Shown here in pieces: positions 24,340 to 62,959 of a stretch of DNA of 64,000 nucleotides. The stretch lies in assembly GCA_025738555.1 (NCBI GenBank), contig JAOVFP010000003.1, forward strand, positions 4,464,001-4,528,000, given 5' to 3'. Within the stretch, counting starts at the first letter, position 1, and each line of letters opens with the position of its first letter. Origin of the DNA: Cyathus striatus (taxonomy: Eukaryota; Basidiomycota; Agaricomycetes; Agaricales; Nidulariaceae). The notes under the pieces are model-generated. The model saw only the letters and a list, made by a program, of their open reading frames with translations. It did no database searches and was not told the origin of the DNA. The position numbers and the translations under genes are program-made.

Positions 24340-25260
24340 TGTGTCGATGGCCGTGGTTGGTGTTCTCGTTGCGCCGCCCACCCTCGCCGTATTCTCGTTA
24401 CGCTGCGCACCGTCCTCCCCCTCTTTGGCGCGTTCCCCCTTGCCGTGTTCTCTTTACGTCGTGCACCAACCCCCCTCATCTGCGCGTAACCCCCTCGCTG
24501 TGTTCTCGTTATGCCGTTACCATCCCCCTTGTCTGCGTGTACCCACCCTAGCTGTGGTCTCGTTACGCTGTGCAAGGTTCTCCCTCGTTGGCACGTACCC
24601 CTCTTCGCCATGTTCTCCTTACGTCATGCACAACCCCCCTCATCTGCGCATAACCCCCTCGCTATGTTCTCGTTACGCCGTCACCATCCCCCCTCGCCTG
24701 CACGTACCCACCTCGCCGTGTTCTCGTTACGTCGTTCACCACCCCCCTCATCTGCGCGTAACCACCATCGCTGTGGTCTCGTTACACTGTGCGCGGTTCT
24801 CCCCCCTCGTTGGCACGTACCCCTCTTCACCGTATTCTCCTTACGTTGTGCACCATCCCCCTTCATCTGCGCGTAACCCCCTCGTTATGCTCTCGTTACG
24901 CCATCACCATCCCCCCTCGCCTGCACGTACCCACCTCGCCGTGTTCTCGTTACGTCGTGCACCACTCCCCTTATCTGTGCGTACCCACCCTCGCTGTGGT
25001 CTCGTTACTCTGTGCACGGTTCTCCCCCCTCGTTGGCACGTACCCCTCTTTGCCGTGTTCTCGTTACGCCGTCACCATCCCTCCTCGCCTGCACGTACCC
25101 ACCCTCGCCGTATTCTCGTTACGCTGCGCACTGTTCTCCCCTCATCCGTGCTTACCCCCCCATCGCTGTGTTCTCGTTATACCATGTACCATACTCCCCC
25201 TTTGTTGGCATGTACCCCCCTCACTGTTCTCGTTGCACTGTATATACCCCCCTTATTGTA
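24340..25260. repeat. CpG-rich 55-bp minisatellite, about 16 copies
   Basis: Units centred on TGTTCTCGTTACGCCGT recur every 54-56 bp, with CCCCCTC and TGCGCGTAACC or TGGCACGTACCC between. The variable unit length leaves several frames open (up to 335 aa), but the translations shift between frames at each unit, so I do not call a protein. The array is strikingly GC- and CpG-rich inside a CpG-poor transposon. Confidence 0.85.
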
Positions 25261-25634
25261 TGTCCTCCCCCCCTGTCTGTGTTTACTCCCCCTTGCTGTA
25301 TTCTTGTTGTGCTGTGCGACGTGCACTTCAGTGCATGAGATATATTAGTCCCACTTACACTTTTGTGTGTGGGTAAATTTTTTGTCTTCTCTGCTTTGGC
25401 GGAGATCTTTCTTTAGGTCCTGTTGTATTTTTGTCCTGACAGTTGTCAGTTGACGAGAACAGCAGGACCTATATGGAAAGTTGAATGATCTTTTGCCACA
25501 TGCTATTTATAAATTGAATCTTGTGATGTCTCGCTGTATCTATTATATAGAAGCACCTGCATTATCAAGTTCCTTCCCTCCCCCCCCCATCAGAGTGCAT
25601 CATTTAACCTCTGCTTTTTTGTACTTCAACTTCT

Positions 25635-28351: not shown

Positions 28352-30743
28352 GTGCAAGATCCATTTCCAGAAATAAAATTTTCAGATTTTTCCGAATTTA
28401 TTACCAGCAACTTCCATACAGACATTACACTAGCAGTGGTACTCAAACTGTTATTCACATTAATAAATAACACAGATCTATTGAATCTCCATGGATGTCA
28501 AAAACAAGCATATAAGAAACCTACAACAAGTTGGATTAATGCTCTTATTAGAGTTCTACAAAGAGATATAAATGATAAGATTAATTATCTATTTACTGAA
28601 GATGAATCTGCTGCTGCTGAGAATTTAACCAATATACAGAAAATAAATTCATTGGGCTCAAAACTTGATTCATTTGCAGCAATTTTAGCACTAGATCCAA
28701 TTATAAAAGGTCATTCTTTAAATGCTGTAAGAACTATAGAAATTGAACCAGTCTTTACTATTTGTCCAAGCCGTTATACTTGCTCAACACCATCATGTGA
28801 TGGGGCACCACTTTACCAAGAAGTCCGCAAACGAGATGTTTCATGTGTAACACTTATAAAAGGAATGCATCCTTACAGTAGTGCCTATGTTCTGAAAGGG
28901 AAATGCAAGCATTGTAATGCATTTTACTATGCAGATCATAAAAGTGTAAAACATACAAATGGCACACGGATTAAAGGATTAAAGAACTCTGCAAAATATG
29001 TAAAGCTTGGACAGCAAGTCTGGGCAGACAGATGCTATACAAATGCAGTTCTTCAAGGAATTTATCATTTTCATGCATCTACAGCTGCATTTGCAGAATT
29101 TTGGAATGAATGCTTTAGAGAATCAGCATTTAAACTGTCTCATAGACAAACTTGGCAGGCATTTATTTCTGAAAGTGTAAGACAGGTAGCAACATATAAT
29201 GATAAAACACTTGTTATAACATCTGATGAGCGTGACATACAAGAGTTAACTAGAAAAGCATTTGAAATACTTGGACAGGAAGGAATTATTGCATGTGCTA
29301 AAGATCATTCATGTAGTGAATGTACACATGACTATAAAAGTACTCCAGACAGAATAACTGATGATACTCCAGCTGCAGTAGCTGGAATTGATGAAAATCA
29401 AACAGTTCCAATTTTACAGGGTGAAGATGCTGAACAATCAATGAGAGAGGAAATTGAAGCTAGAGCACTTTCTCGGCAACAAATTCAACAAACCAATTGT
29501 ACAACCAATGATATGGATATTGACAATGAACTGTCTAGTGAATCATCCAATGAATCATCCAATAATGTACCAAACACAAGTCAATCAAATCAAGCTGAGA
29601 AACCAATAGTAAACATGGTTGTTATGGATGGGATAATTATGGGTCCAAGACATTGTGCATATGAGAACTGTGATAATAGTTTAGAAAATGAAAGAACAGG
29701 TGTATTCTGTATATATCATCAAGCTATGCGTGGTCACATATGTCATATAAAATCATGTAACAACCTCAAAGAACAAAACTCTAAAACATGTATTAATCAT
29801 CAGTCACAATGGCGCAACCATCTTGTAAGATTTGGTCGGCAAACACTTTTAGGAATAAGAAGACTTATTCGAAGAAGTGAAGAGGAACGAGTAGATTGGC
29901 TTCCTCGTATAAACCGGCAAGTGATGCCCCATGATGATGCTCCTGCACCACATGAGGAGCGAAATCATTACTTTACTGCTCCTCGATTTTACTGTGTTGA
30001 GACATTATGTGCACCATGTGGAGCAGTTATTGCATGGACCAAGTTTACAAAATCTGAAGGACCTGGAAATATTATGAGATTTTTAGATCATGTCTATCCA
30101 ACTCTTGAATCTCGTCCAAGCTATGTCTGTATTGACAAAGCATGTGTAGTGCTAAAAAATGCTGTGTTAAATGGTGCATGGAGAATTTGGAGTCTAACAA
30201 CCAGATTTATTGTTGATTCATATCATTATGTTAACCATAGAACAACTGATTATACATGTCGTAAATGGTGCAACCCAGCACCTTTAAATGGATCTGCACC
30301 CAACTTGGTTGTAGTGGAAAATGATATTCATGGAAGACCACATTATAAAAGAGCCTTCAATACTCAGGTAAAAAGAATTTCATATTAGTATATGTATAAC
30401 TTTATTTAATACTTCCATACAGGCTTGTGAGCAATTAAATGCATGGCTTGGAGGGTTTCAGAACATGCTTAACAGAATGACTGTTATTAACTTCAACTGG
30501 ACCATACATGCACTTCTATTTATTCATACACAAAAGGTTATTAAGAAGCAACTTGAAAGAAACAATAGTACTCAAGATGATGAAGATATTATAGAAGATG
30601 ATTCTGATAATTCTGATGTAGAAGAGGAAGAGGAAGCAGAAGAGGAAGCAGAAGATATATATGACAGAGAAGAAGCAGCAGATGAATATGACAGAGAAGA
30701 AGATGAAGGAATAGCAGATTATGGATTGGATATTGATGTCTAA
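28352..30743 (+). CDS. CxC5/CxC6-like KDZ-associated protein (RNase-H-fold)
   Basis: Two visible exons (28352-30367 and 30423-30743) with an intron of about 55 bp. The first begins after a likely acceptor (TTCTCCAG), so a short upstream exon carrying the ATG is probably missing from my model. Cysteine clusters: CSTPSCDGAPLYQEV with KGKCKHCNAFYY (CxC5-like) and CAYENCDN with FCIYHQAMRGHICHIKSCNN (CxC6-like). The C-terminal part resembles a DDE/RNase H core: SYVCIDKACVVLKN, RFIVDSYHYVNHR, then RAFNTQACEQLNAWLGGFQ. It ends in an acidic tail. Such proteins accompany KDZ transposons in mushroom genomes (memory); the frame has no premature stop here. Likely a partner of, or second, transposase. Confidence 0.75.
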
Positions 30744-36234: not shown

Positions 36235-39200
36235 ATGACCTCCCTGACTGCATCCACCAGGGAGTGTCTTCAATTTGGAAGTTGCTGTCTGACTGGAAAG
36301 GTTAAACTTCCAGGATGGGGCCAATCTCCAAGAGAGTTGACAGAGCTGCTTGCAAAGGATGGAAACAAGAATTTCCAGGACAATATTCGTCAATACAACT
36401 GTGCCTTTGCCATGACATCCATGGGAGTTGAGAAAAATGCTTCCATCCAGGCAGGAGGTCCATACATTTTCAAAATTGGAGGTTGAGTTACTCACTTTGC
36501 TGGATCACTCCTACCTTGCCAAGGTCTTCCCAGAAAATATGCTCAACTCTACATTCATGATCCAGCTGAGGCACCTTCAGCTCAGGATTGAATTAATGGT
36601 CATCCTGCAAATCATAATCTTAACATGGATGTCAATGTTATGAGAATATTGGAAGATGTTCTCTATTGTCATCATCCAGGTGCATCAGTGTATCAGAAGG
36701 CCTATCAGGAAATACAGAACAATAACCCTGCTCACAATTTTTGCCTTGCCATTTGTTGTCCTGTAGGCACAGACCGATGGCGATACAATGTTCCAACACA
36801 AGATGAGATTTCTGTTCTTCTGCTTGGTGATGGTGATCAGGTGGAGGGTCCTCACAAGGTGATCATGCATCGCCTTGATGGTAGACCGGAGAGAATCAGT
36901 GAGGTGAATGCAATGTATTGGTCATTTCACTATCCAATCCTGTTTCCACAAGGTCAACTTGGATGGCAGCCTGGCATTAAATATGATGGTGTGAAGGAGG
37001 TGGATAATGTGGATCATCCACCCAACAGGGCACCAGGAGAGGAGGAGGATGCACCCACAACAAGGAAGCACAAGCATGTCTCACAAATTGAGCATTTTTG
37101 CTATTACATCCATCCACATATTGGTGAGAATCTTCATCAATTCAGGACAAAGAAGCTGTTTCAGGAGTATAGTGTGGATACATGGGCATGCACTGAGCAG
37201 GGTTGGTTGCATTGGATTGATGGTCATCAACCAGAGATCTATCAGGGAATTGTGGATGCAATTGCAGTTAATCCAGATGTGCAAGGGGAGGAACTTGGGA
37301 AAAGGGTAATCATTCCATTCAATTTTGCAGGAAGCACTCAATTCATGCAGCAGAACTGTCAGGATGCACCGGCTATCAATCGGCACTTTAAGTTTCCAGA
37401 CTACTTCCTCACAGTGACCATGGATCCCCATCATCCAGATGTGAAGAGTGCCCTCCCTGAAGGGGTGGAAGCTCATGATCAGCCAGACATTGTGGTTTGG
37501 GTGTTTCATCAAATTCAGCAGCAGATTATTTGAGATATCTACCAGGAGGGCATCTTTGGACAATGTGTTGCACATATCCATACCATTGAATACCAGAAGC
37601 ATGGACTGCCACATATGCATTTAATTGTGTTTGTGGCTCCTGAGGACAAGTTGCACACTCCTGAGGATATTGAGAGCATGATCACTGCTGAACTTCCTGA
37701 TCCTGAGACTGAACCTGAGCTGTATGATTTGATTCTGAGAACCATGATTCACAAGCCCTGTGGTCCTGGCAGCAATCAGCCATGTATGGAACATGGCAAG
37801 TGCTCAAAGGGATTTCCAAAGGCTTATTGGGATGAGACCATCATCACAGATGATTCATACTCTGTTCTGAGAAGGAGGGAGATCACAAGATTTCAGCCCA
37901 TGACCAGGGATGGAACCCCAGTGAATAACTGCTGGGTTGCACCATACAATCAATATCTGTCATGGAAGTACCAGTGCCACATTAATGTTGAATGCATTGC
38001 ATCAATCAAGGCCATCAAGTACATTTACAAGTACATTTTCAAAGGCCATGATCGCACTACAGTGGAGTTTTCAAGGGAACTAGATGAGATGAAGACATTC
38101 TTGGATGCTCGCTATATCTCTCCCTGTGAGGCTCTGTGGCGACTGTTTGCATTTAAATTGCATGAAGAGGTTCCAAATGTAGTTCAGCTGTTGACTCATC
38201 TTCCAAATGAGCAGTCTGTTATATATGATCAGAATGCTGAAGATGTGCAGGAGGTGTTGGAGCATGCATCAACACAAGATACAACTCTTACTGCTTACTT
38301 TCAGGCCAATATTGAATACCCAGCAGCAAGGGAGGTTCTGTACCAGGACATGCCCAATACCTTTGTGTGGAATAAAACTGAGTGCACATGGACAGTTCAT
38401 CAGTGAGGATTTGCAATTGAATGAACATACTTTGTTCATCCAAATGCTGGGGAGCAATTCTACCTGTGAACATTGCTAACAGTGGTCAAGGGTGCAAAAT
38501 CCTTTGCTGACTTGCGAACAGTTGATGGAGTTGTGCATCAGACATTCAGAGAGGCATGTCTGGCTTTAGGCCTTCTGCAGGATGATGGTGAATGGAGAGA
38601 GTGTTTGCGAGATGCTGCTGCTATGAAGACAGGATATCAGCTGCACAGCCTGTTTGGGACAATTCTTCAAGACTGTGGACCTGTAGAGTATGTGTGTGAG
38701 AAGTAACAAGAGTAAAGGAGGGTGGTTGAGAGGATAGAGAGTAATAAAGGAGCAAGGAGGGTGATGAGAGAGCAAATAACTCAGACACAAACACTAACAC
38801 AGACACAAGATGAGTAGGAAACTTGTTAACAACTACCAAGTTACAGAGTGTTTATATACTGAGTAAGTCTACCAAAGTCCAACCAAAGTCCTGTAACTAA
38901 GGTAACTGACAGCTGTCAATCTGTCAATCACATATCTGTCAATCAAGTATCTGTCAATCACAGAACTGTCAAGTATGACAGGTGACAAGTGACAGCTGTC
39001 AAAGAAGCTGTGCAACCCAGAATATCTAACAATGTGGGACTCTGGAATGAATTTAAGGAACACATCTGTGATGATCTGGGACATATTATTCAAACACACC
39101 TTGATCTTGCAGATCCTACAGAGCAACAAATCTATGATTATGGGTTGTACCTGATTGATAAATTTCTAATCAGTTCTGGCAAGTCTCTGTCAGAATGGAA

Positions 39201-40734
39201 AGATATGCCACTACCAACAGAAAACTGGCATGAATGGGAGCAGCAAGCCAACAACAGGAGGGAAGACCAGTCCAACAATCCATTAATTGCAGTATACACT
39301 GCATACAATATAGTGGAACAGCATGCTCTGGGTCAGGAGCAACTGGCAACTTTGAATGAGGAGCAGTGTGCAGCCTTTGATCAGATAGTGCACACCATTG
39401 AGACAAAACCTGGGGAACTGTTCTTCTTGCATGGCCCTGGAGGAACAGGAAAGACCTATGTGTACAACACACTATGCTATTACCTTCTGGGGGAGGGAAA
39501 GATAGTGATTGTTGTTGCATCATCAGGGATTGCTGCACTTCTGATTGTTGGAGGGCAAACAGCTCACTCTGTGTTCAAAATACCAATTGACATCAATGAG
39601 ACATCAATGTGCAATATTGCATGGGGGTCTGATCTTGCTGGGCTGATTAAGAAGGCTGATGCAGTGTTTTGGGATGAGGCACCAATGCAGCACTGACATA
39701 TCCATGAGGCAGTGAGCTATACATTCAAAGATCTTCATCGTGATGAGTGACCATTTGGAGGATGCACTGTGGTGTATGATGGAGACTGGCAACAAATCCT
39801 TCCTGTGGTGGTACAAGGGAGCCGAGCTCAAATTGTGTCAGCATGCCTTCAGAGATCTGATCTTTGGGCAGACATTACAGTGATTCACTTGTGACATAAC
39901 ATGCAATTGAATGTGGAGGATGCAGATGAATGAGATTTTGCTGCATGGCAGCTGGGTGTGGGTCATGGGGAGCACACTGTTAATGAAGATATCCAAATAC
40001 CAAATTACTTCAAGTGCACTTCAAATACTGTGGAGTCCCTTATTTCAGCAATCTACCCTGGACTTTCATCAGCTGAAGGAAATACTGATGAGTACTATGC
40101 TGAGCAAACAATTCTGTCAAGTCAGAATGATGATGTGGATGGTCTGAACTCTCAGATTCTGGCTTCATTCCCAGGGGAGGCAACTTCATTACACAGTGCA
40201 GATACACTTCCAGAAGATCATGGATATGATGGGGAACTTCTTTACCCTGTGGAGTACCTGAACACGATCAACTGCTCTGGATTACCACTGGCACACTTGG
40301 AATTGAAGATAGGATGTCCTGTGATGGTGCTTCAGAACCTGAGTGTTTCTGATGGAGTGTGCAATGGCAGCCATGGAGTGATTACACAAATACAAAACTG
40401 AGTGTTGGAAGTTCAGTTATTAACTGGGGACAAGAGAGGGTGTCAAGTGTTTATACCACAGTTGAAAATTGAACCATCTGCTTCACAAGTGCCATTCCAG
40501 TTTTGTTGACATCAGTTCCCTGTTCAACTTGCATTTGTGATGATGATCAATAAATTACAAGGACAATCAGTTTCTAATGTTGGATTGGATCTTTGAAATG
40601 GGGTGTTTACACATGGACAGTTCTATGTTGGAGTTTCACGAGTACAATCAGTATACAAGATAAAGGTGATTTGGGATGCCAGATCTGAAGAAGCTGTTAC
40701 AAAGAATATAGTGTACCCAGAAGTGTTACTTTAG
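36235..40734 (+). pseudogene. Helitron Rep-helicase, single frame with about 13 TGA codons
   Basis: All segments share one reading frame to the TAG at 40732-40734. The N-terminal Helitron-like region starts abruptly (CLQFGSCCLTGKVKLP; FQDNIRQYNCAFAMTS). The HUH replicase motif is in EYQKHGLPHMHLIVFV (about 37590-37630), and KYIYKYIFKGHDR carries the paired tyrosines (about 38025). The helicase part shows Walker A GPGGTGKTY (about 39433), [17 protein letters not shown] and a C-terminal INKLQGQSVSNVGL and THGQFYVGVSRVQ. In-frame TGAs lie near 36484, 36589, 37531, 38404, 38422, 38467, 39694, 39748, 39892, 39929, 40399, 40507 and 40594. TAA/TAG occur only within a 0.3-kb insertion. Intact relatives transpose as rolling circles; this copy is dead and 5' truncated. 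Confidence 0.9.
38690..38990. mobile_element. About 0.3-kb insertion within the Helitron helicase
   Basis: Between LQDCGPVE and NNVGLWNEFKEHICDD, which should be almost adjacent, lies unrelated sequence with TAA/TAG stops and repeated CTGTCAATCA words. It begins near TGTGAGAAGTAAC and ends near AGTATGACA, suggesting a solo LTR-like piece. GTATG at both edges could be a 5-bp duplication, but the limits are uncertain. Confidence 0.5.
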
Positions 40735-52931: not shown

Positions 52932-54299
52932 CTAAAACGGCTGCTCAGCAAGCACCTCAGCAACCTTCACAACAAGCTCATCCTTCCCCCTCAACTCAGC
53001 CGCAAAATACGCCTTCAACCCACCCACCCCCTTCTCCCTAACCATCCTCGAAACAGCATCATATGCCTTCGGCTCATCCACCCGCCTAATCGTGCACACA
53101 AAGTCGCGTTTCTTCGTATACACCATCATGTCGCCCGTCGGCGCACCCATGGGTACCTGGACCTTGATCACGATCGGTTTCGGCGCAGAGAGGTCTTTGG
53201 GGACGTTCGAAGCGATGGAGTGGGATGCAGGTGCTTCGAGGTCGGGTGCGCCTACGTGTGCGCGCATGAACTTGCTCATGGGTACGAGGGTGCGTATGTC
53301 GTGGTTGTAAGTCGGTTTAAGGGTGACAGTGTTTGCTGCGTTGAAAGGCTTGCATGATTTCTTGTGCGTTGGCCAGTGTGATCCTGATCACACGCGATTA
53401 GGCTGTGCAGTAGAGAAGATGTAAATGAAAAACACACGTTGGCATTCCCTGGAACAGTACCTCGCAACCTGACACTTTGCACAATTCTTCAAAGGCTTCT
53501 CTTTCTCTCCACATGCCGCGCAAGCCTTCTCACTCCTCGGCGCCTCATCCTCCCCATTCCGCTTCCGAATCCATTTCTGTATAACAGCAGTAATCTGCGG
53601 ACCAAAGCCCAGATAACACAATCGCGGTGTACCACCCTCCGCATCGGCCATATCCAAATCTGCACCAAACTCCATCAACACATCGACATTGTCAGAATTT
53701 CCAGAAGGGAGCGAGAATAGCAATGGGTTCTCGCCGTAGCGGTTCCTGTAGTTTACTGATGCACCCGATTTGAGCAATAGGCGGACGTAGGACTCGTCCC
53801 CTGTTTGGGGCTTTGCCTGGAGGGCGTGGTGCAGGGGTGTGAGGCCGACGATGTCGGGTTTGTCGAGTGGGACGCCTTGTGCGATGAGGTACTCGAGGGT
53901 TTTGTAGTGTTTGAGCGGTGGGGCGGATTCGTCGTCGAAGGAGACGCGTTGGGAACCTGCTACCACCAAGGTTGCGTAGCCGAATTGGTAGGGTAGTTCG
54001 GTGCCTTTGAGGTCTGGCGCGAGTCCTATTTCAACCATCTGGTGTTTGTTGTTAGAATGGGAAGGGGTGGTAAATGGATAGACGCACTACTTTCACTGCC
54101 TCTAGCAAGCCTGTATAGCATAATTTTCCGAACTCGCTCAAATCTCCGTAGGAAAAGTGAGCGCTTCCTGAAGGGGGACAGTGATAAGCTGGTTTCAAGA
54201 GATTTCTTTGAAAGGCTTACCATTGCGGTAGGCAATTCTGACCTGCTGCGCGCCGTCTTTTTTCGACAAGTACCCTTTCTTCGAGAGGTAGGGCTCCAT
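52932..54299 (-). CDS. Ankyrin-repeat and MYND zinc-finger protein, 402 aa
   Basis: Four exons (54299-54221, 54167-54091, 54038-53438, 53383-52932) sum to 1209 nt in frame. Start chosen at MEPYLSKKGYLSKKDG; an upstream exon cannot be excluded. Ankyrin-type repeats: LEYLIAQGVPLDKPDIVGLT, YVRLLLKSGASVNYRNRYGE, VDVLMEFGADLDMADAEGG (roughly residues 95-190). MYND finger: CAACGEKEKPLKNCAKCQ, RYCSRECQ, then HWPTHKKSC across the last intron, so all zinc ligands are present. The C-terminal domain contains VQVPMGAPTGDMMVYTKKRD and ends VAEVLAEQPF, a conserved fungal ending. MYND and ankyrin modules mediate protein-protein contacts; the partner is unknown. No decay signs. Confidence 0.85.
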
Positions 54300-54520: not shown

Positions 54521-57475
54521 TAGTGTTGTTGGCAGAATAGATATGATTCTGCCAATATGACAGGCAGAACCTTGGCAGAATGGCAGAACGAGAGGGGGTC
54601 TGGCAGTATATGGCAGAATAGATCTCACCAAATCTCGGCAGCCCTCGCTAATTTCATCAAAATATGGACAGTTAAGGGAATTGGGGTTGATAGAACTGTA
54701 CAGCTCATCAAAAACTTCATCTCAGGGACGGCTGAAGGCTTGCAGTGGGTATGACAGCGTGGTAGATATCAACACATTTTTGATTTTGACGCGCTGCAGC
54801 AGTATTGTCTACTACTTCTTTAAGTTCTCACATTATTATTACACATGGCTTCGAAAACCGGCCGGAAGCAGCTTGATATCATCACCAGCAACTTCGATAA
54901 ATTTAGAAGCATTGGTCACAATCACTATGAATGGAAATGTCATCATTGCAATGCTGTTGTTGAGGGACGTGACAAATTGCATGTGAAGCATTTGTCAGAC
55001 ACGAGGGAATGCAAGAATGTTCCACCTGTTGTCCGAAGCGAGGCTCTGCAGATATTATCTAAACCAGTGAAACATCCAGTGCGAAGACAGGGAGCAGGGA
55101 GTAGCTCGGTTTCATTGGTACCAGATGCAGAGCCAGATGTTGTGGAGGTTCAGAATGTGACGGTTGCAAGCAAGAAAAGGAAGACCAGTACTCTTGATGG
55201 ATATGTTGATTATGGACTTACGGAGGGTCAGAGGCAAGAAGCAGATTTAAATCTTTTCAAGTATGTAACTTTTTCATCCCAGCCATATTCCAAATTAAGG
55301 CATAGTAATATTTTTAGATTCTTAATTCATGGAAACATTCCTTTCCTTGCTGTCGAAAACCCTTTCCTCAATAAATTTATGAACATTATTCGTCCTACCT
55401 ATCAAGTTCCATCACGATATGTTGTTTCCCACTCACTTATTGATAGTCAGTATGCAGACTGTCAGTTATCGGACCTTAATCAACTCCAGGAGCGAAAGAT
55501 GCTAACGATCCTTTTGGATGGATGGGAGGATAAGCTGAAGCGTAGTGTTTATGCTACTGTTGCAGCTGAAGTAAATTGGCACCCTATTATTATTAGTGTT
55601 GATGATATGACTGGTCAACGTGGTTCAGCAGACAATCTCTGGGAATTGTCGATGAAAGCATTCACCCACATGGGACTAGAGTCTGGTGGCCATTTCATTG
55701 CTGCTACTACTGATAATCCTACGGTAATGCGAGTATGGCGTCAACGTTTTCAACAGAAGTATGATTCCGTTCTGGTAAGTATTCTGAGGGTTGTAGTGTT
55801 TCTTACATTCTAACTTTGGGGTGCTATAGACATTCGCTTGCTTTCTCCATGGCATTAACACAATTATTGGAGAAATTGTAGCCTTTCCTGCTATAAAAAA
55901 TATCATAAAAAAGACTGTTCGCATTGTGACGTTCTTCAACTGTTTGCATTTTTGGGGGGGGCAGCTTAAGGATGAAGCTGCTCGTGATAATGTCACTCGC
56001 TCACTTAAAAAACATTGTGAAACTCGGTGGTATTCACTTATTCTCCTGTCTCTAAGTGTTCTCGATCATAGGTATGTCATAGCATTATATATATTGAATT
56101 AAAATACTTACTTTTAGTGTAACAGGAATGCACTTGCACGTATATGTGTCCGACGAGATGCAGCAAGACGGATTAATGGTCTTTCACCTGTTCCACATGA
56201 TGTTCGAGATACTATTATAGATGTAAACAACACCTACTGGCCACTACTCAATCAGCTTGTAAAGATAACAAAGCCACTCGTTGATGCGATTGGGAATCTG
56301 GAATCTCGAGAAGCTAATCTTGCAGACTGCATGCTGGAGCTTATTCGCTGTGCACAACACATGTTCCGGCTTCGGTACTGTCAAGAAGATGACGAAAACT
56401 TCAATTTTTGGAGCAGTTCACGATCAGTATTCAATCGACGTTTCCATGAAATGGATACAGAGCTTCACTCACTTGCACTATTTCTCCATCCTTTGTGTCG
56501 TAAACTTGCTCTCTCCCAGGTTTCTAATGGGCGCACTTTGGATTTTATGCTCAAGACTGCTGCATCTCTTGCCCATCGCTGGAAATGGAATGTAGCTGAT
56601 GCTAAACGGCTTATAGATGATATAAAACTCTATAATCTATGCAAATCACCTTTCTCAGGTGGCCAAGTCGATGCATTAGACTGGTGGAAATCATTGCAGG
56701 TGAAAAGTGACGAGCACCCTATTAAAAAACTTGCTATAGTTCTTTTCTCTATCGTTCCACATGCTGCTGAAGTTGAACGACTATTTTCAGACTTGGGTGG
56801 AACACAGTCAGCAAAACGCTGTAACATGACCATTAGAACAATGGAGCGCATAGCTAAATTGTGATCTTGATATCACAGGGAACTTACTGATCAAGGTTTA
56901 GGACTTGGACCAACCCGATGACGTCATGCTCACATGCATACCCGAGATCAACATGGAGTTGATATCAATCTCGTTAACTCACTACAGGAAGACTTTACAT
57001 AGGTACCGCCAATGGTAGCTTCTGGTTCTTCGGAATATAATGCAGATCCAGAAAATTTTGAAACATTCGAGGATACAACACTTGAAGAACTCGAAGAAGC
57101 ATTTGATGCAATTGAAAACTCACGCGATCTGCCATTGGAGGAAACAAATTTTTCGAGCCATGAAATACTTGATGGAAATGTTTATGACTTCTCTGAATTG
57201 GACCAAGTTGATAAGGGAATTCCACCAGTAATGTTTGAGGAAGAAATTCGAGTGGTTAATACAGACAACAATGGAGAAGGAGGTCAGTGGGATATCAATC
57301 AGCTTTTGGTCAACTGTGGGGTCGCAACTAGATAATAATTCGCTAAATAGTTCTATATACATGGTTTTAGTTCTAATACAAATTTTAATTCTGCCGGTAT
57401 CTGCCCAGCTTGGCAGAATAAGTTCTGCCAGCAGAATGGCAGAACGGAAGCCAAAACATTCTGCCCACAGCACTA
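54521..57475 (+). mobile_element. Complete hAT element, 2955 bp, TSD CTTGCACT
   Basis: Terminal inverted repeats TAGTGTTGTTGGCAGAAT and TAGTGCTGTGGGCAGAAT (after complementing the right end). Flanked by CTTGCACT at 54513-54520 and 57476-57483, the 8-bp duplication typical of hAT. GGCAGAAT-type motifs recur in both subterminal regions (54530-54620, 57390-57445). Confidence 0.92.
54845..57335 (+). pseudogene. hAT transposase, C-terminus interrupted by TGA
   Basis: Three exons (54845-55774, 55830-56071, 56126-57335). Domains: BED-type zinc finger (WKCHHC...HVKHLSDTREC, residues 30-60); DUF659-like region (TILLDGWEDKLKRSVYATVA, then FIAATTDNPTVM); RNase-H remnants; and the hAT dimerisation domain ALDWWKSL...HPIKKLAIVLFSIVP with EVERLFSDLGG. 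TGA stops at 56862-56864 and 56868-56870 follow ERIAKL, and another is at 56919-56921. A TAG lies near 56999. The same frame then continues through an acidic segment to 57335. If the first TGA is the true end, the protein could still be functional (about 640 aa), because the dimerisation domain precedes it. Confidence 0.85.
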
Positions 57476-58909: not shown

Positions 58910-60460
58910 CTACATCTCATACTGATCCTCCCAATCCCGTGCACCCAAATACTCATCCCACTCACGAGCATCCAACTCGTACATCTCCTCATCACGCTCC
59001 TCAAATTCATCCCACTCGCCCCGTTCCTCTAGATACTCCTCGCGCATCTCAAGTAATTCCTCAGAGTCCCAATCACGAGAAACAACTTCAAGTTCAGAGT
59101 CATCAAAGTCGCGCCTAAGCACAGTATCCAACACCGCGCCAGCTGCTCCAGCTAAAGGTACAGAAGTAGTAAGCATGTTTCCCATCCCAAATCCTCTACT
59201 TCAAAATTTGCGGACTTACACACTGGATTCCGAACCTTATCCAAAACCTTCATGCCCTTGTCCAGCTTTTTCCCAAGATCCACATGGATCGCATTCGAAG
59301 CTGCATTGGTACCAGTGCTGGCAGCCTTGAGAGCAGCACTGATGGGTTTCCCAATGACAGGGATAAATTTCGCGATCTTTGATCCAATGGACTGTGCAGT
59401 TGATATGATTTTCAATCCGAACTTGGCGACCTTTGCACCAGTCGTTTTCATGAAATGGCCGACTTTCTTAGCGGCTGATCAAGAGTCGTTAGCGTTGAGG
59501 TAAGAGTATCAGATGTTGCCATACCAGTTTTAATTCCATTTCCGACCTTCTTCGCCACTACACAAAAATGTAAGTTTATAAGCAAGACTTAAAACCCTTA
59601 TATTACCAGTTTTAATCGCATTTCCAGCTTTCTGTCGAACGATAAGTCTCATAATTAACGTTCCTAACATTCGCACGCACCTGGAAACCGGTTTTAATCG
59701 CCTTTCCAGCTTTCTGCCAAACGATGAGTATCTTAATTAACATTCCTGTCAGTGTTTATACGCACCTGGAAACCAGTTTTAATCTTCTGTCCGGCTTTCT
59801 ATTGACAACTCAACAACACTCTCAGCATTTATATCAATGAGTACACACCTGGAATCCGCTTTTAACCTTCTGTCCGAATTTCTACAACATCTCAGCAGCA
59901 CTCCCAGAATCCATATCTATGAGTACACACCTGGAATCCACTTTTAACCTTCTTGCCAAGGTTCTATAGCTTGTGGCTCAATGACATTCCTAACATTGCA
60001 AATAACGACACACACCTGGAATCCGCTCTTAACCTTCTTTCCGAATTTCTACCGAAGGATCAATGATAGTCTTTGCATGTATATCGATGGGTACGTACCT
60101 GGAAACCCTCTTTAATTTTTGTGAAAATGCTCTTTCGGCGCACAAGAGTTACTTGGTCGATATCTTCTCGAAGAGCGAGGTGATCAGCATGAGTGGTAGA
60201 CGAACGCTTTACAATAGCATTGACAATGCTCTCAGAGCGTTCTGCAAGAGCGAAATCGGGTTTATGTTTTGGGATGACGCATGATTGAGAATGGGTACAA
60301 GTAAGCGACCTGCATTTCATACGATTGATAAGCCAATGACGAAAATCCACTACGAATGGATAACTAACGCAGACGGGACCGGTACAGCCGATGCGAACAG
60401 AGCGCACAGCGCAAGAGTGAGAGCAACGAGACCAGCTCGTAGGACAGTATGAGAATGCAT
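58910..60460 (-). CDS. Secreted 11-mer-repeat precursor, micro-exon gene A (340 aa)
   Basis: Eleven exons: 60460-60369, 60309-60099, five 33-bp exons (60048-60016, 59963-59931, 59881-59849, 59798-59766, 59713-59681), 59631-59607, 59557-59525, 59474-59220, 59151-58910. They sum to 1023 nt, in frame. Residues 1-25 form a signal peptide ending FASA. A pro-region follows with dibasic sites (IVKR, LVRR). Each 33-bp phase-0 exon encodes one cationic 11-mer of pattern K-(F/A)-G-(K/Q)-(K/A)-(V/I)-K-(S/T)-G-F-Q (one starts N-L). The core has KTTGAKVAKFGLKIISTAQS, PVIGKPISAALKAAS and NAIHVDLGKKLDKGMKVLDK. After VLRR comes a very acidic tail (EYLEERGEWDEFEERDEE). This suggests a Kex2-processed cationic peptide precursor with a neutralising acidic propeptide; an 11-residue period fits a lipid-binding helix. 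Function is inferred, family unknown. Confidence 0.85.
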
Positions 60461-60560
60461 GGTGGGACCAGCCGCACATTTACCAACAATTCATGAGTGG
60501 TGATTATAAGCCAAATCCAACGTTGTCATGACCATCACAGCCCCCTTGTGCTAGCGTCAT
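60461..60560 (-). promoter_or_regulatory. Promoter of micro-exon gene A (TATA-like)
   Basis: TTATAATCA (complement of 60501-60509) lies about 45 bp upstream of the ATG. The surrounding 150 bp is conserved upstream of gene B, including GGTCCCACC next to the ATG and GGGGCTGTGAT further up. Confidence 0.55.
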
Positions 60561-61430
60561 TCAGCGTCGCATTCAAATAGGCGGTATAGATTGTGCGGGT
60601 GAGTTGTATTTCGCTAAAATTACGGACGGCCCCGTGTGGAATCAGTATTGCACGTACGGATCAGTGATTAATGATAGTTTTTATCTAGCGTGGCGGTAGG
60701 CGGTGCTTGGAGTGGACCTACAGATCAGTGATTTGGTTCCTGGAAAGCCAGTTTATAGGCGCTGAAGAGGAATATGATCAAAGATGCGGATAGATGCATG
60801 TAGATAAATGCAAGTACTCACTTTTCATTGAAAAGGACGAAGGACTTCAGTGGTTTAAAGCTTGGCTTTTGTACAAAAAGGTCACCATCCGAAAAGTGTC
60901 GAAGGATCAAACTTAGAGTCAAGTATTAAATAATTTGGAAGAAAAGTTAACAAGTGAGTCTTTGGGGCACTCTTGATGTTTCACAATGAGCATTTGACTG
61001 GATTGCACATAGCAGAGAAAATAGAAATTGCGCCGCGGCAGTAGTAACTGTGTTCTCGGCAGCTTTTCCCCCCAGTGACAGTTTGACATCTCCCCTCTAG
61101 ATCATCGTCATGCGAAGCGGTGAAGACAGCGAGCGGAAGACCAGCACCAAGACATAACCCATGAAGACGGTCCCGTCCTTGTATGCCAATATCTCAAACA
61201 AAGATATGCCTAGGTGCCTAACAACAACCTCAATCTAGCTCACCTCGCACAATCCATTAGTTAAATTTCTCCTGGGTATCCATTGCTGAAGCTGTGGCTT
61301 TCCTAAATCAAGAGGACTTGAAGCAGCTAAAGGAAAACTGAGGATAAGGAAGGTCTATTCTGCAGCGTTGATAAGCGAGTTCCCTCGCAATGTTAAAACA
61401 ACCCTCTTCCTTTTCGTGTTTCCGCGACAC
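60561..61430. other. Intergenic between micro-exon genes
   Basis: The right-hand side, up to about 60670, is conserved with the region upstream of gene B. The rest has no gene or repeat I can identify. Confidence 0.5.
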
Positions 61431-62959
61431 TTACAACGCATACTGACCTTCCCAATGATCCCAGTCCCGTTCCTCCCATTCATTCCATCCTCTAGCCTCC
61501 CATTCATGGGAGTCATCACGAGCTTCCAACTCGTACGGCTCCTCGTCGCGCTCGTCAAATTCACCCCACTCGCCTCGTTCCTCCAGATAGTCCTCGCGCA
61601 TCTCAAGGAAGGAGTCCTCAGAGTCCCAATCACGAGAAACAACTTCTTCAAGTTCAGAGTCATCAAAGTCGCGCTTAAGCACAGCATTCAACGCCGCGCC
61701 AGCTGCTCCAGCTAAAAGTACAGAAGGTAGTAAGCATGTTTCTATCCAAAATTTCCTTTACTTAAAAAATTGAGGACTTACACACTGGATTCCGAATCTT
61801 ATCCAAAACCTTCATGCCCTTGTCCAGCTTTTTCCCAAGATCCACGTGGATGGCATTCGAAGCCGCATTGGTACCAGTGCTAACAGCCTTGAGAGCAGTA
61901 CTGATTGGTTTCCCTATCCCAGGTATAAATCCAGCAACCTTCGCTCCAATGGACTCTACAGTTGATAATACTTTCAATCCGAACTTGGCGACTTTAGCAC
62001 CTGTCGTTTTTACGAAATGGCCAACTTTCTTAGCGGCTGACGAGGCGTAAGGTATGGTTAGTATTGAAGTAAGAGTGTCATATTTCGACATACCGGTTTT
62101 AATTCCATTTCCGACCTTTTTCGCCACTGCACAGAAATGTGAGTTAATAAGCAAGACTTTTAAAACCAGTTATTACCTTTTTTGATTGCTTTCCCAGCTT
62201 TCTGTCTAACGATAAGTCTCATGTTTAACATTCCTATCATTGATACGCACCTGGAAACCGGTTTTAATCGCCTTTCCAGCTTTCTGCCGAACAATGAGTG
62301 TCATGATTAACATTCTTGTCAGTGTTAATACGCACCTGGAATCCGGTTTTAACCTTCTTTCCAAATTTCTACGGATAACCTCAATAACACCTCTAACATC
62401 CATGTCAATAGCCACACACCTGGAATCCGCTTTTAACCTTCTTGCCAAATTTCTACAGCTTGTAGTAGCAAATGACATTCCTAACATCATATATCACAAC
62501 AAACACACCTGGAATCCACTTTTAATCTTCTTCCCGAGTTTCTACTGAACGATCAATTACAGCCTTGTCAGAAATATCGATGATTTACGCACTTTGAAAC
62601 CCTCTTTGATCTTTGTAAAGATACTCTTTCGGCGTACAAGGGTCACTTGGTCGATATCTTCCCGAAGAGCAAGGTGTTCAGCATGAACAATAGAAGAACG
62701 CTTTACGATGACATTAGCAATGCTCTCAGAGTGTTCTGCGAGGGCGAAGTTGGGTTTAGGCTTGGAGACGATGCATGATTGAGGATGGGTATCTGCGCAA
62801 GTAAGTGACCTGTATTTCATATGCCTTATTAGCCAATGACCAAAATATGCTATAAATGATAACTAACGCTGACGGGACTGGCACAGCCGATGCGAAAATA
62901 GCGCACAGCGCAAGAGTGAGAGCGACGAGACCAGCTCGTAGGAAAGTATAAGAGTGCAT
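61431..62959 (-). CDS. Secreted 11-mer-repeat precursor, micro-exon gene B (344 aa)
   Basis: Ten exons: 62959-62868, 62809-62593, four 33-bp exons (62541-62509, 62452-62420, 62368-62336, 62283-62251), 62201-62177, 62126-62094, 62036-61782, 61711-61431; total 1035 nt, in frame. Same architecture as gene A: signal peptide (MHSYTFLRAGLVALTLALCA), pro-region with IVKR and LVRR, 11-mers such as KFGKKVKSGFQ, a core with GIGKPISTALKAVS, then VLKR and an acidic, tryptophan-rich tail (DYLEERGEWGEFDERDEE). It has one 33-bp micro-exon fewer than gene A, while the 25-, 33- and 255-bp exons are equal in length. The two genes lie head-to-tail about 970 bp apart, a recent tandem duplication. CpG-containing codons are frequent and no stops have appeared, so both look under selection. 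Confidence 0.85.

Follow-up and report, generated by a model that had tools for sequence, protein, structure and literature searches.

Two genes that lie in tandem on the minus strand of a 64,000-nucleotide (nt) stretch of Cyathus striatus DNA (C3:4464001-4528000 of a 107-Mb, 24-contig genome; the whole stretch is called the window below) carry ladders of 33-nt exons, each of which encodes one 11-residue cationic repeat. Gene A extends from 60460 to 58910 in 11 exons and gene B from 62959 to 61431 in 10 exons, with uninterrupted ATG-to-stop frames of 1023 nt (340 amino acids, aa) and 1035 nt (344 aa), respectively. Each gene contains two ladders, located at two intron positions, a point missed by the initial annotation of this DNA. 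The overall best explanation, in which we have about even confidence, is that the exons are spliced constitutively and that the number of exon-intron cassettes sets the helix length of a charge-masked, Kex2-cut, membrane-active secreted protein.

Since GT-AG sites guided the manual placement of the gene models, these dinucleotides are built into the models and are not a finding; the predicted splice sites draw their support from conservation and homology. The introns of both genes measure 49-59 nt, with the exception of the last one (68 and 70 nt). The phase-0 ladder consists of 33-nt exons (exons 3-7 of A and 3-6 of B) and is cut after repeat position 11, between GFQ and K. The phase-1 ladder (exon 9 of A and exon 8 of B, also 33 nt) is cut within the codon of repeat position 9. 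Both ladders are joined by a 25-nt exon running from phase 0 to phase 1, which is present in all five family copies described below and is the sole asymmetric ladder part. Together, A and B have 11 exons of 33 nt, all of them symmetric (nine in phase 0, two in phase 1), and two of 25 nt. The length is a multiple of three in six of the seven small exons of A and in five of the six of B, and small exons make up about 22% of the gene A coding sequence.

The initial annotation had proposed tandem genes at 58910-62959, and the two coding spans, on the minus strand, reach exactly to the ends of this interval, with the limits and the sums of 1023 and 1035 nt reproduced. Its description of symmetric 33-nt exons with one cationic 11-residue repeat each, whose gain or loss is neutral for the frame, also agrees with our models. 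The statement that every exon ends at a codon boundary is true for five of the seven small exons in A and four of the six in B, but not for the 25-nt and phase 1-1 exons. That any exon could be skipped in frame is contradicted by the 25-nt exon, which would shift the frame if skipped in any of the five copies.

As a control for chance, both strands of the window were scanned for AG-GT units enclosing 33 nt without a stop, chained by gaps of 40-75 nt. The longest chain lies in gene A and has six units, formed by the final 33 nt of exon 2 and by exons 3-7; 20 dinucleotide shuffles gave chains of two to three units. When neighbouring units had to share at least 5 of 11 residues, the chain was again six units long in the window and one in the shuffles. 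Without this requirement, one unit of the chain matches out of register and overlaps exon 6 of A; the restricted chain takes exon 6 itself. This analysis confirmed that the micro-exon ladder exceeds chance.

A search of the genome with the long exon of A revealed five family copies (A-E), clustered in about 37 kb of C3 and all in minus orientation, of which C, D and E lie outside the window. The same five copies were obtained with a Gymnopilus sequence and, together with two weak matches, with the long exon of E. Cassette copy number varies among the paralogues: D and E have phase-1 ladders of 33- and 66-nt exons (E also one 54-nt exon), and C has one phase-0 unit only. In the five paralogues, 26 exons do not exceed 70 nt: 16 measure 33 nt, four 66 nt, one 54 nt and five 25 nt. 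Their introns number 43 and measure 49-75 nt. Copy C (C3:4530212-4535442, beyond the window) is split, with its signal-peptide exon about 4.4 kb from the remainder, and the ends of the intervening stretch are matching inverted sequences, as after insertion of a DNA transposon. A sixth, decayed copy near C3:4536070-4536750 has kept a signal-peptide-like start and an acidic tail, and its repeat ladder is gone.

The 43 introns were compared in 903 pairs, with z calculated against shuffles that preserve the splice sites. In 23 pairs z was above 4, and in none when one intron body was reversed. Within genes, the identities were 78% (A4-A5), 73% (A6-A7), 77% (B5-B6) and 66% (A2-A5); those between genes include 87% (A6-B5) and 84% (A7-B6). 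Because introns resemble each other within a gene, exon and intron appear to have been copied together, and it is very likely that the ladders grew by tandem duplication of cassettes of one exon plus one intron. Such copying is shown by the introns for the phase-0 ladder. For the phase-1 ladder it is only assumed, as z did not exceed 4 for any pair of introns within D or within E. The pair A6/A7, which equals B5/B6, probably predates the split between A and B, while A4/A5 against the single B4 looks like a younger duplication or a loss in B. Since each cassette contributes 33 coding bases in symmetric phase, its gain or loss would preserve both the reading frame and the helical register.

Retention of an intron would lead to a frameshift or a stop in the case of 10 of 10 introns in A, eight of nine in B, seven of eight in D and nine of 11 in E. 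Comparison of the long exon of A and D gave identities of 88, 95 and 54% at codon positions 1, 2 and 3, which is a coding pattern. It is less clear between A and B (91, 94 and 77%); in the four paired A/B micro-exons the values are 86, 98 and 82%.

Relatives, protein layout and helix geometry

The protein search gave at least 83 matches (P0001-P0083) among the 7995 of its candidates that were scored, and an iterated profile search gave at least 247 proteins among 7993 scored candidates, 120 of them listed. Many of the additional proteins from the iterated search are short and without fungal names; they look like generic Lys-rich amphipathic repeats and were not counted as members. The alignment comprised 77 of the 83 matches, with P0079-P0083 (weak or dissimilar) and P0054 (seemingly misannotated) left out. 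The closest proteins among those scored are from C. striatus, P0001 (88% over 92%) and P0002 (80% over 99%), and P0026 corresponds to C. For all three, the contig is given as 239,039 bases long, and the cluster may therefore be conserved. P0026 is annotated whole. Other strong named matches come from Hebeloma, Laccaria, Pholiota, Gymnopilus and Crucibulum and, among the listed matches of the iterated search, also from Hypholoma and Flammula. All genera of the strong named relatives belong to the Agaricales. A and B belong with the proteins P0001-P0078 to one family, marked by a dibasic site, 11-residue repeats and a conserved C-terminal region, KTTGAK..KFGLK...FIP.IGKP...IH..LG.KL. A PF27499 label is attached to some relatives in the protein table. 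P0079, from the lichen fungus Varicellaria rhodocarpa, matches weakly over a short stretch of the 11-residue repeat (E 8.7e-5, 15% of the query), and its likeness may reflect either shared ancestry or chance.

The initial annotation knew of no described fungal family with this layout. We likewise found no description of fungal 33-nt exon ladders or of this protein family among the papers listed by an open-access library that holds few subscription journals, and a search there for six locus names found no paper. Members of the family are on record, as unnamed hypothetical proteins of several Agaricales.

Four phase-0 units are annotated in P0001 against five in A, and five in P0002 against four in B; this difference in cassette number could be real or an annotation error. 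In P0002, the fourth phase-0 unit is followed by about 8 residues that do not belong to the repeat; they may come from an exon extended past an altered donor site. Longer non-repeat inserts occur in Hebeloma P0006 (18 residues, 54 nt), Crucibulum P0024 (17 residues, 51 nt) and Pholiota P0054 (17 residues, 51 nt). As judged by eye, they are situated exactly at intron positions, the phase-1 place in P0006 and P0054 and the phase-0 place in P0024, and their first and last residues are compatible with GT...AG read-through in that phase. These inserts seem to be translated introns, which hints that both intron positions exist in Hebeloma, Crucibulum and Pholiota. Many other matches are on contigs of about 1 kb that are nearly filled by the protein, e.g., P0028 with 315 aa on 992 bases, and such contigs may be spliced transcripts. 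Gymnopilus dilepis P0084 and P0087 each consist of two consecutive signal-peptide-to-core units, probably two tandem genes fused by annotation.

In the proteins of A and B, a probable signal peptide is followed by a pro-region, a dibasic site, the 11-residue repeats, the conserved helical region, a second dibasic site and an acidic tail. This is likely to be the layout of a prepro-protein. The N-terminus of A, B, D and E is hydrophobic (19-residue mean 2.07-2.27), and the signal peptide was judged by eye. The net charge of the core is +37 in A, +38 in B, +34 in D and +29 in E, and that of the tail is -25, -27, -24 and -14, respectively. A [KR]R site no more than 14 residues before the fixed Phe of the first repeat was found in 70 of the 77 aligned relatives, against a background of 11% of 14-residue windows. 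The protein strings of A and B contain no [KR]R within the repeat block; a few relatives do, e.g., P0017 and P0036. Of the 60 relatives that extend for at least 30 residues past the conserved region, 46 carry a dibasic site in this stretch, and in 39 an acidic segment lies beyond the site. The acidic flank was counted in 61 of the 77 relatives, namely those that start with M and whose sequence ahead of the core is at least 60 residues long and includes a [KRP]R site, with a net charge of -5 or lower taken as acidic. It is C-terminal in 36 and N-terminal in 11 of them, two relatives having it on both sides, and the two placements occur together less often than expected (Fisher p=0.005, a statistic that ignores relatedness). 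The shift of the acidic segment from one side to the other suggests that charge rather than sequence matters.

In A, B, D and E, the repeat block shows its largest hydrophobic moment at 98.2-98.6 degrees per residue, and 11 residues per three turns correspond to 98.2 degrees. The height of the moment is 0.57-0.62, compared with shuffle maxima of 0.26-0.31. With a core charge of +29 to +38, these values are those of a cationic amphipathic helix, the helix itself being predicted. The distance between two fixed points spanning the repeats is a multiple of 11 in 47 of the 77 relatives. An AlphaFold2 model of P0001, based on the 77-row alignment, has a helix at 94-201, which begins just past the dibasic site at 90-91. 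A profile search of the PDB gave 39 distinct sequences at E<=1, the best being a designed helical bundle (4uos, 1.6e-5), followed by designed coiled coils, many influenza haemagglutinin stalk chains (E of at least 0.016) and apolipophorin III (0.18). We read them as generic long helices. No Pfam family was above its cut-off for A or B, and the weak matches included ApoLp-III, MbeB_N, CCDC90-like and CAP18_C. Membership in apolipophorin III (PF07464) was rejected, with 23.4 bits for A and 18.1 bits for B against a curated cut-off of 36.3.

Proposed mechanism and alternative explanations

Our account starts from what can be read in the DNA, namely the anatomy, the two intron positions, the phase-0 cassette duplication, the dibasic sites and the charge layout. 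From these features we infer splicing in the cell, secretion, cleavage, a helix in lipid and membrane action. Each ladder exon would supply one repeat unit, or two when it is 66 nt long, and splicing would probably be constitutive, with the genomic cassette number, not skipping, setting the helix length. After signal cleavage, a Kex2-type protease would cut between LVRR and KSIF and between L(R/K)R and D, and these cuts would free the Lys-rich core (185 aa in A, 174 aa in B) from the pro-region and the acidic tail. The core is predicted to form one long amphipathic helix of 11-residue units, with three turns each, and then a shorter helical region. Until the cutting, the acidic segment would partly offset the positive charge of the core. 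The freed core may then act on membranes, most likely those of competing microbes; we put a membrane or antimicrobial action at slightly below an even chance. More tentative, and rather doubtful as a whole, is the idea of the exon-intron cassette as a ruler. Introns may have entered an ancestral 11-residue repeat at two places, each seeding a ladder, and the length of the secreted membrane-active helix may since have been tuned in three-turn steps, even between close strains, perhaps with length isoforms in addition.

Several findings weigh against this account. The difference in copy number from the C. striatus counterparts depends on the annotation of P0001 and P0002, and the N-terminus of P0001 differs and is probably misread. 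Selection is not clear in the close pair, as A and B differ by 51 synonymous and 54 nonsynonymous codons; the numbers for the four paired micro-exons (44 codons) are 7 and 6, and the differences in the long exon are mostly nonsynonymous for A and C (24 to 34) and for A and E (24 to 41). The whole proprotein is net positive (+10 to +16), so masking would be only partial, and 16 of the 61 relatives have no acidic flank at the cut-off used. In copy E, PR replaces the dibasic site before as well as after the core. In 30 of the 77 relatives the distance across the repeats is not 11-fold; in 13 of these it is 7 mod 11, and 7 residues make about two turns, so that 0 and 7 mod 11 both keep the helix face. 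The P0001 model is weak (mean predicted local distance difference test score, pLDDT, 63.6; predicted template modelling score, pTM, 0.26), being most confident near the helix start and weak elsewhere, and a Foldseek search with it gave 49 matches at E<=10 and none at E<=0.001. Finally, helices of this cationic amphipathic type have other possible ligands, namely lipids, nucleic acids or cell walls.

With gene models placed by hand and from sequence alone, the ladders could be tandem DNA repeats with chance AG and GT and no real gene. We consider this hardly credible in view of the shuffle control, the codon-position pattern of A and D, the five paralogues, the annotated C. striatus proteins with the same joined repeats and the contigs of about 1 kb in which nothing interrupts the coding sequence of the 11-residue repeats. 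If the genes are real, their product might be a lipid carrier, surfactant or desiccation protein, whose 11-residue helix coats lipid or hyphal surfaces in the manner of apolipoproteins, perilipins, group 3 late embryogenesis abundant (LEA) proteins and the Kex2-cut Rep1 peptides of Ustilago. The 11/3 periodicity fits lipid-coating helices, and A weakly resembles apolipophorin III in Pfam (E 7e-5, 23.4 bits) and in the PDB (E 0.18). However, the Pfam score is under the curated cut-off of 36.3, and the core has a charge of about +35 and an acidic partner segment, a combination that, to our knowledge, is unlike apolipoproteins or LEA proteins. This role is unlikely, though it is the strongest of the alternatives. 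An effector directed at a host or plant, that is, a secreted cationic repeat protein acting on a partner organism, appears less probable still. Relatives were found in Laccaria and Hebeloma, which are mycorrhizal genera, but the family also occurs in Cyathus, Crucibulum, Pholiota and Gymnopilus, which are decay fungi without a living host. Secreted effectors built of repeats are known, as exemplified by SP7 of Rhizophagus in the passages of PMC11333574 drawn on here.

The initial annotation had suggested that the symmetric micro-exons could be skipped to give peptides of differing length; the sequence data analysed here gave no evidence of skipping. Skipping any of the 11 symmetric 33-nt exons of A and B would indeed preserve the frame, but their symmetry follows from cassette duplication and does not need skipping to explain it, and the 25-nt exon is asymmetric. 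Short introns are associated with splicing by intron definition and with a low number of cassette exons: in a survey of 42 eukaryotes, the cassette-exon fraction averages 3% in fungi and protists, and retained introns dominate (passages of PMC2397502). The same passages, which include no mushroom among their species, give a fraction of 0.02 for Cryptococcus and of 0.21 for Ustilago maydis (8 cassette exons to 31 retained introns), so that cassette exons are not always rare in basidiomycetes. From the few cassette exons in the fungi of the survey we expect one main isoform, and we regard a skipping ladder as very improbable. Constitutive splicing with helix length set by the cassettes is the reading we prefer.

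Coordinates and other features of the window

Table 1. Parts of genes A and B in the window.
Feature	Position	Strand	Remark
Gene A, coding span	58910..60460	-	closest relative P0001 (Cyathus striatus), 88% identity over 92% of query
A exon 1, signal-peptide-like N-terminus	60369..60460	-	hydrophobic peak; judged by eye
A exon 2, pro-region, dibasic sites IVKR and LVRR, first repeat SIFTKIKEGFQ	60099..60309	-	
A exon 3, 33 nt, phase 0-0, KFGKKVKSGFQ	60016..60048	-	
A exon 4, 33 nt, phase 0-0, NLGKKVKSGFQ	59931..59963	-	unit absent from annotated C. striatus P0001
A exon 5, 33 nt, phase 0-0, KFGQKVKSGFQ	59849..59881	-	
A exon 6, 33 nt, phase 0-0, KAGQKIKTGFQ	59766..59798	-	
A exon 7, 33 nt, phase 0-0, KAGKAIKTGFQ	59681..59713	-	
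A exon 8, 25-nt junction exon, phase 0 to 1, KAGNAIKT	59607..59631	-	
A exon 9, 33 nt, phase 1-1, AKKVGNGIKT	59525..59557	-	
A exon 10, 255 nt, last repeat and conserved C-terminal helical region	59220..59474	-	
A exon 11, dibasic site LRR and acidic tail	58910..59151	-	net -25 over 66 aa
Gene B, coding span, tandem relative of A	61431..62959	-	relative P0002 of C. striatus
B exon 1, signal-peptide-like N-terminus	62868..62959	-	hydrophobic peak; judged by eye
B exon 2, pro-region, sites IVKR and LVRR, first repeat SIFTKIKEGFK	62593..62809	-	
B exon 3, 33 nt, phase 0-0, KLGKKIKSGFQ	62509..62541	-	
B exon 4, 33 nt, phase 0-0, KFGKKVKSGFQ	62420..62452	-	
B exon 5, 33 nt, phase 0-0, KFGKKVKTGFQ	62336..62368	-	
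B exon 6, 33 nt, phase 0-0, KAGKAIKTGFQ	62251..62283	-	
B exon 7, 25-nt junction exon, phase 0 to 1, KAGKAIKK	62177..62201	-	
B exon 8, 33 nt, phase 1-1, AKKVGNGIKT	62094..62126	-	
B exon 9, 255 nt, last repeat and conserved C-terminal helical region	61782..62036	-	
B exon 10, dibasic site LKR and acidic tail	61431..61711	-	net -27 over 79 aa

Elsewhere in the window, matches to Helitron_like_N and PIF1 helicase were found in two separate open reading frames (ORFs) at 36625-39696 on the plus strand, and the ORF between them matches nothing; this region is a probable Helitron remnant. A plus-strand ORF of 678 aa (28352-30388) contains CxC5 and CxC6 cysteine clusters associated with KDZ transposases. 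Another of 322 aa (54845-55813, plus strand) shows a weak similarity to DUF659, under the cut-off, and is possibly a hAT-like transposase; a further ORF is located at 56331-56864. The minus strand encodes ankyrin repeats followed by a MYND finger at 53388-54038. Two overlapping long ORFs of repetitive sequence at 24341-25376 on the plus strand are perhaps a tandem DNA repeat rather than a gene.

Comparison with known systems

In these genes, the gene structure, the repeat unit and the predicted helix geometry share one quantum, as 33 nt equal 11 residues and three turns, and duplication of an exon cassette visibly adds helix turns. The data point to an unnamed, probably secreted family of cationic proteins in several genera of Agaricales. 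An acidic segment that may stand on either side of the core makes charge masking directly testable. Annotation pipelines stumble on such ladder genes, as P0006, P0024 and P0054 seem to carry intron translations in their repeats.

Exons locked in length to whole repeats, with symmetric phase, are characteristic of fibrillar collagen genes. A and B share this lock and differ in the protein, in the two intron positions and phases and in the fungal introns of about 50 nt. The 11-residue amphipathic periodicity is shared with apolipophorin III and other lipid-binding helices; A and B are strongly cationic and under the Pfam cut-off. Ece1 is a secreted precursor from which Kex2 cuts candidalysin, a peptide of about 31 aa, and copsin has a compact Cys-rich fold. 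Unlike both, A and B have a core of 174-185 aa with 11-residue repeats that is predicted to be helical. Copsin, a Kex2-cut antimicrobial, occurs in another mushroom (passages of PMC9769878), and, like it, A and B read as secreted precursors cut by Kex2, a cleavage predicted in their case. The Kex2-processed repeat proteins (KEPs) of fungi resemble A and B in the signal peptide, the dibasic sites, the repeats and their occurrence in Agaricomycetes. As KEPs are described in the passages used from PMC9769878, sites flank each repeated peptide core, whereas A and B have them to either side of a single, undivided block of repeats.

Schistosome micro-exon genes (MEGs), with which the initial annotation had drawn a loose analogy, encode secreted proteins in many short exons that are mostly multiples of three (passages of PMC10526429). 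The analogy holds in so far as A and B are probably secreted and their short exons are mostly multiples of three. It does not go further: in the same passages, MEG introns measure 0.1-5 kb and exons 6-81 bp, in contrast to introns of 49-70 nt and one dominant exon size in A and B. One repeat per exon also separates A and B from schistosome MEGs, to which homology was sought only through the protein searches. The SP7 effectors of Rhizophagus are likewise secreted tandem-repeat fungal proteins with a varying repeat number, but their repeats are hydrophilic and some have nuclear signals, unlike A and B (passages of PMC11333574). Both exon-equals-repeat genes and Kex2-processed secreted proteins are kinds already known, and the layout of A and B is a variant of these.

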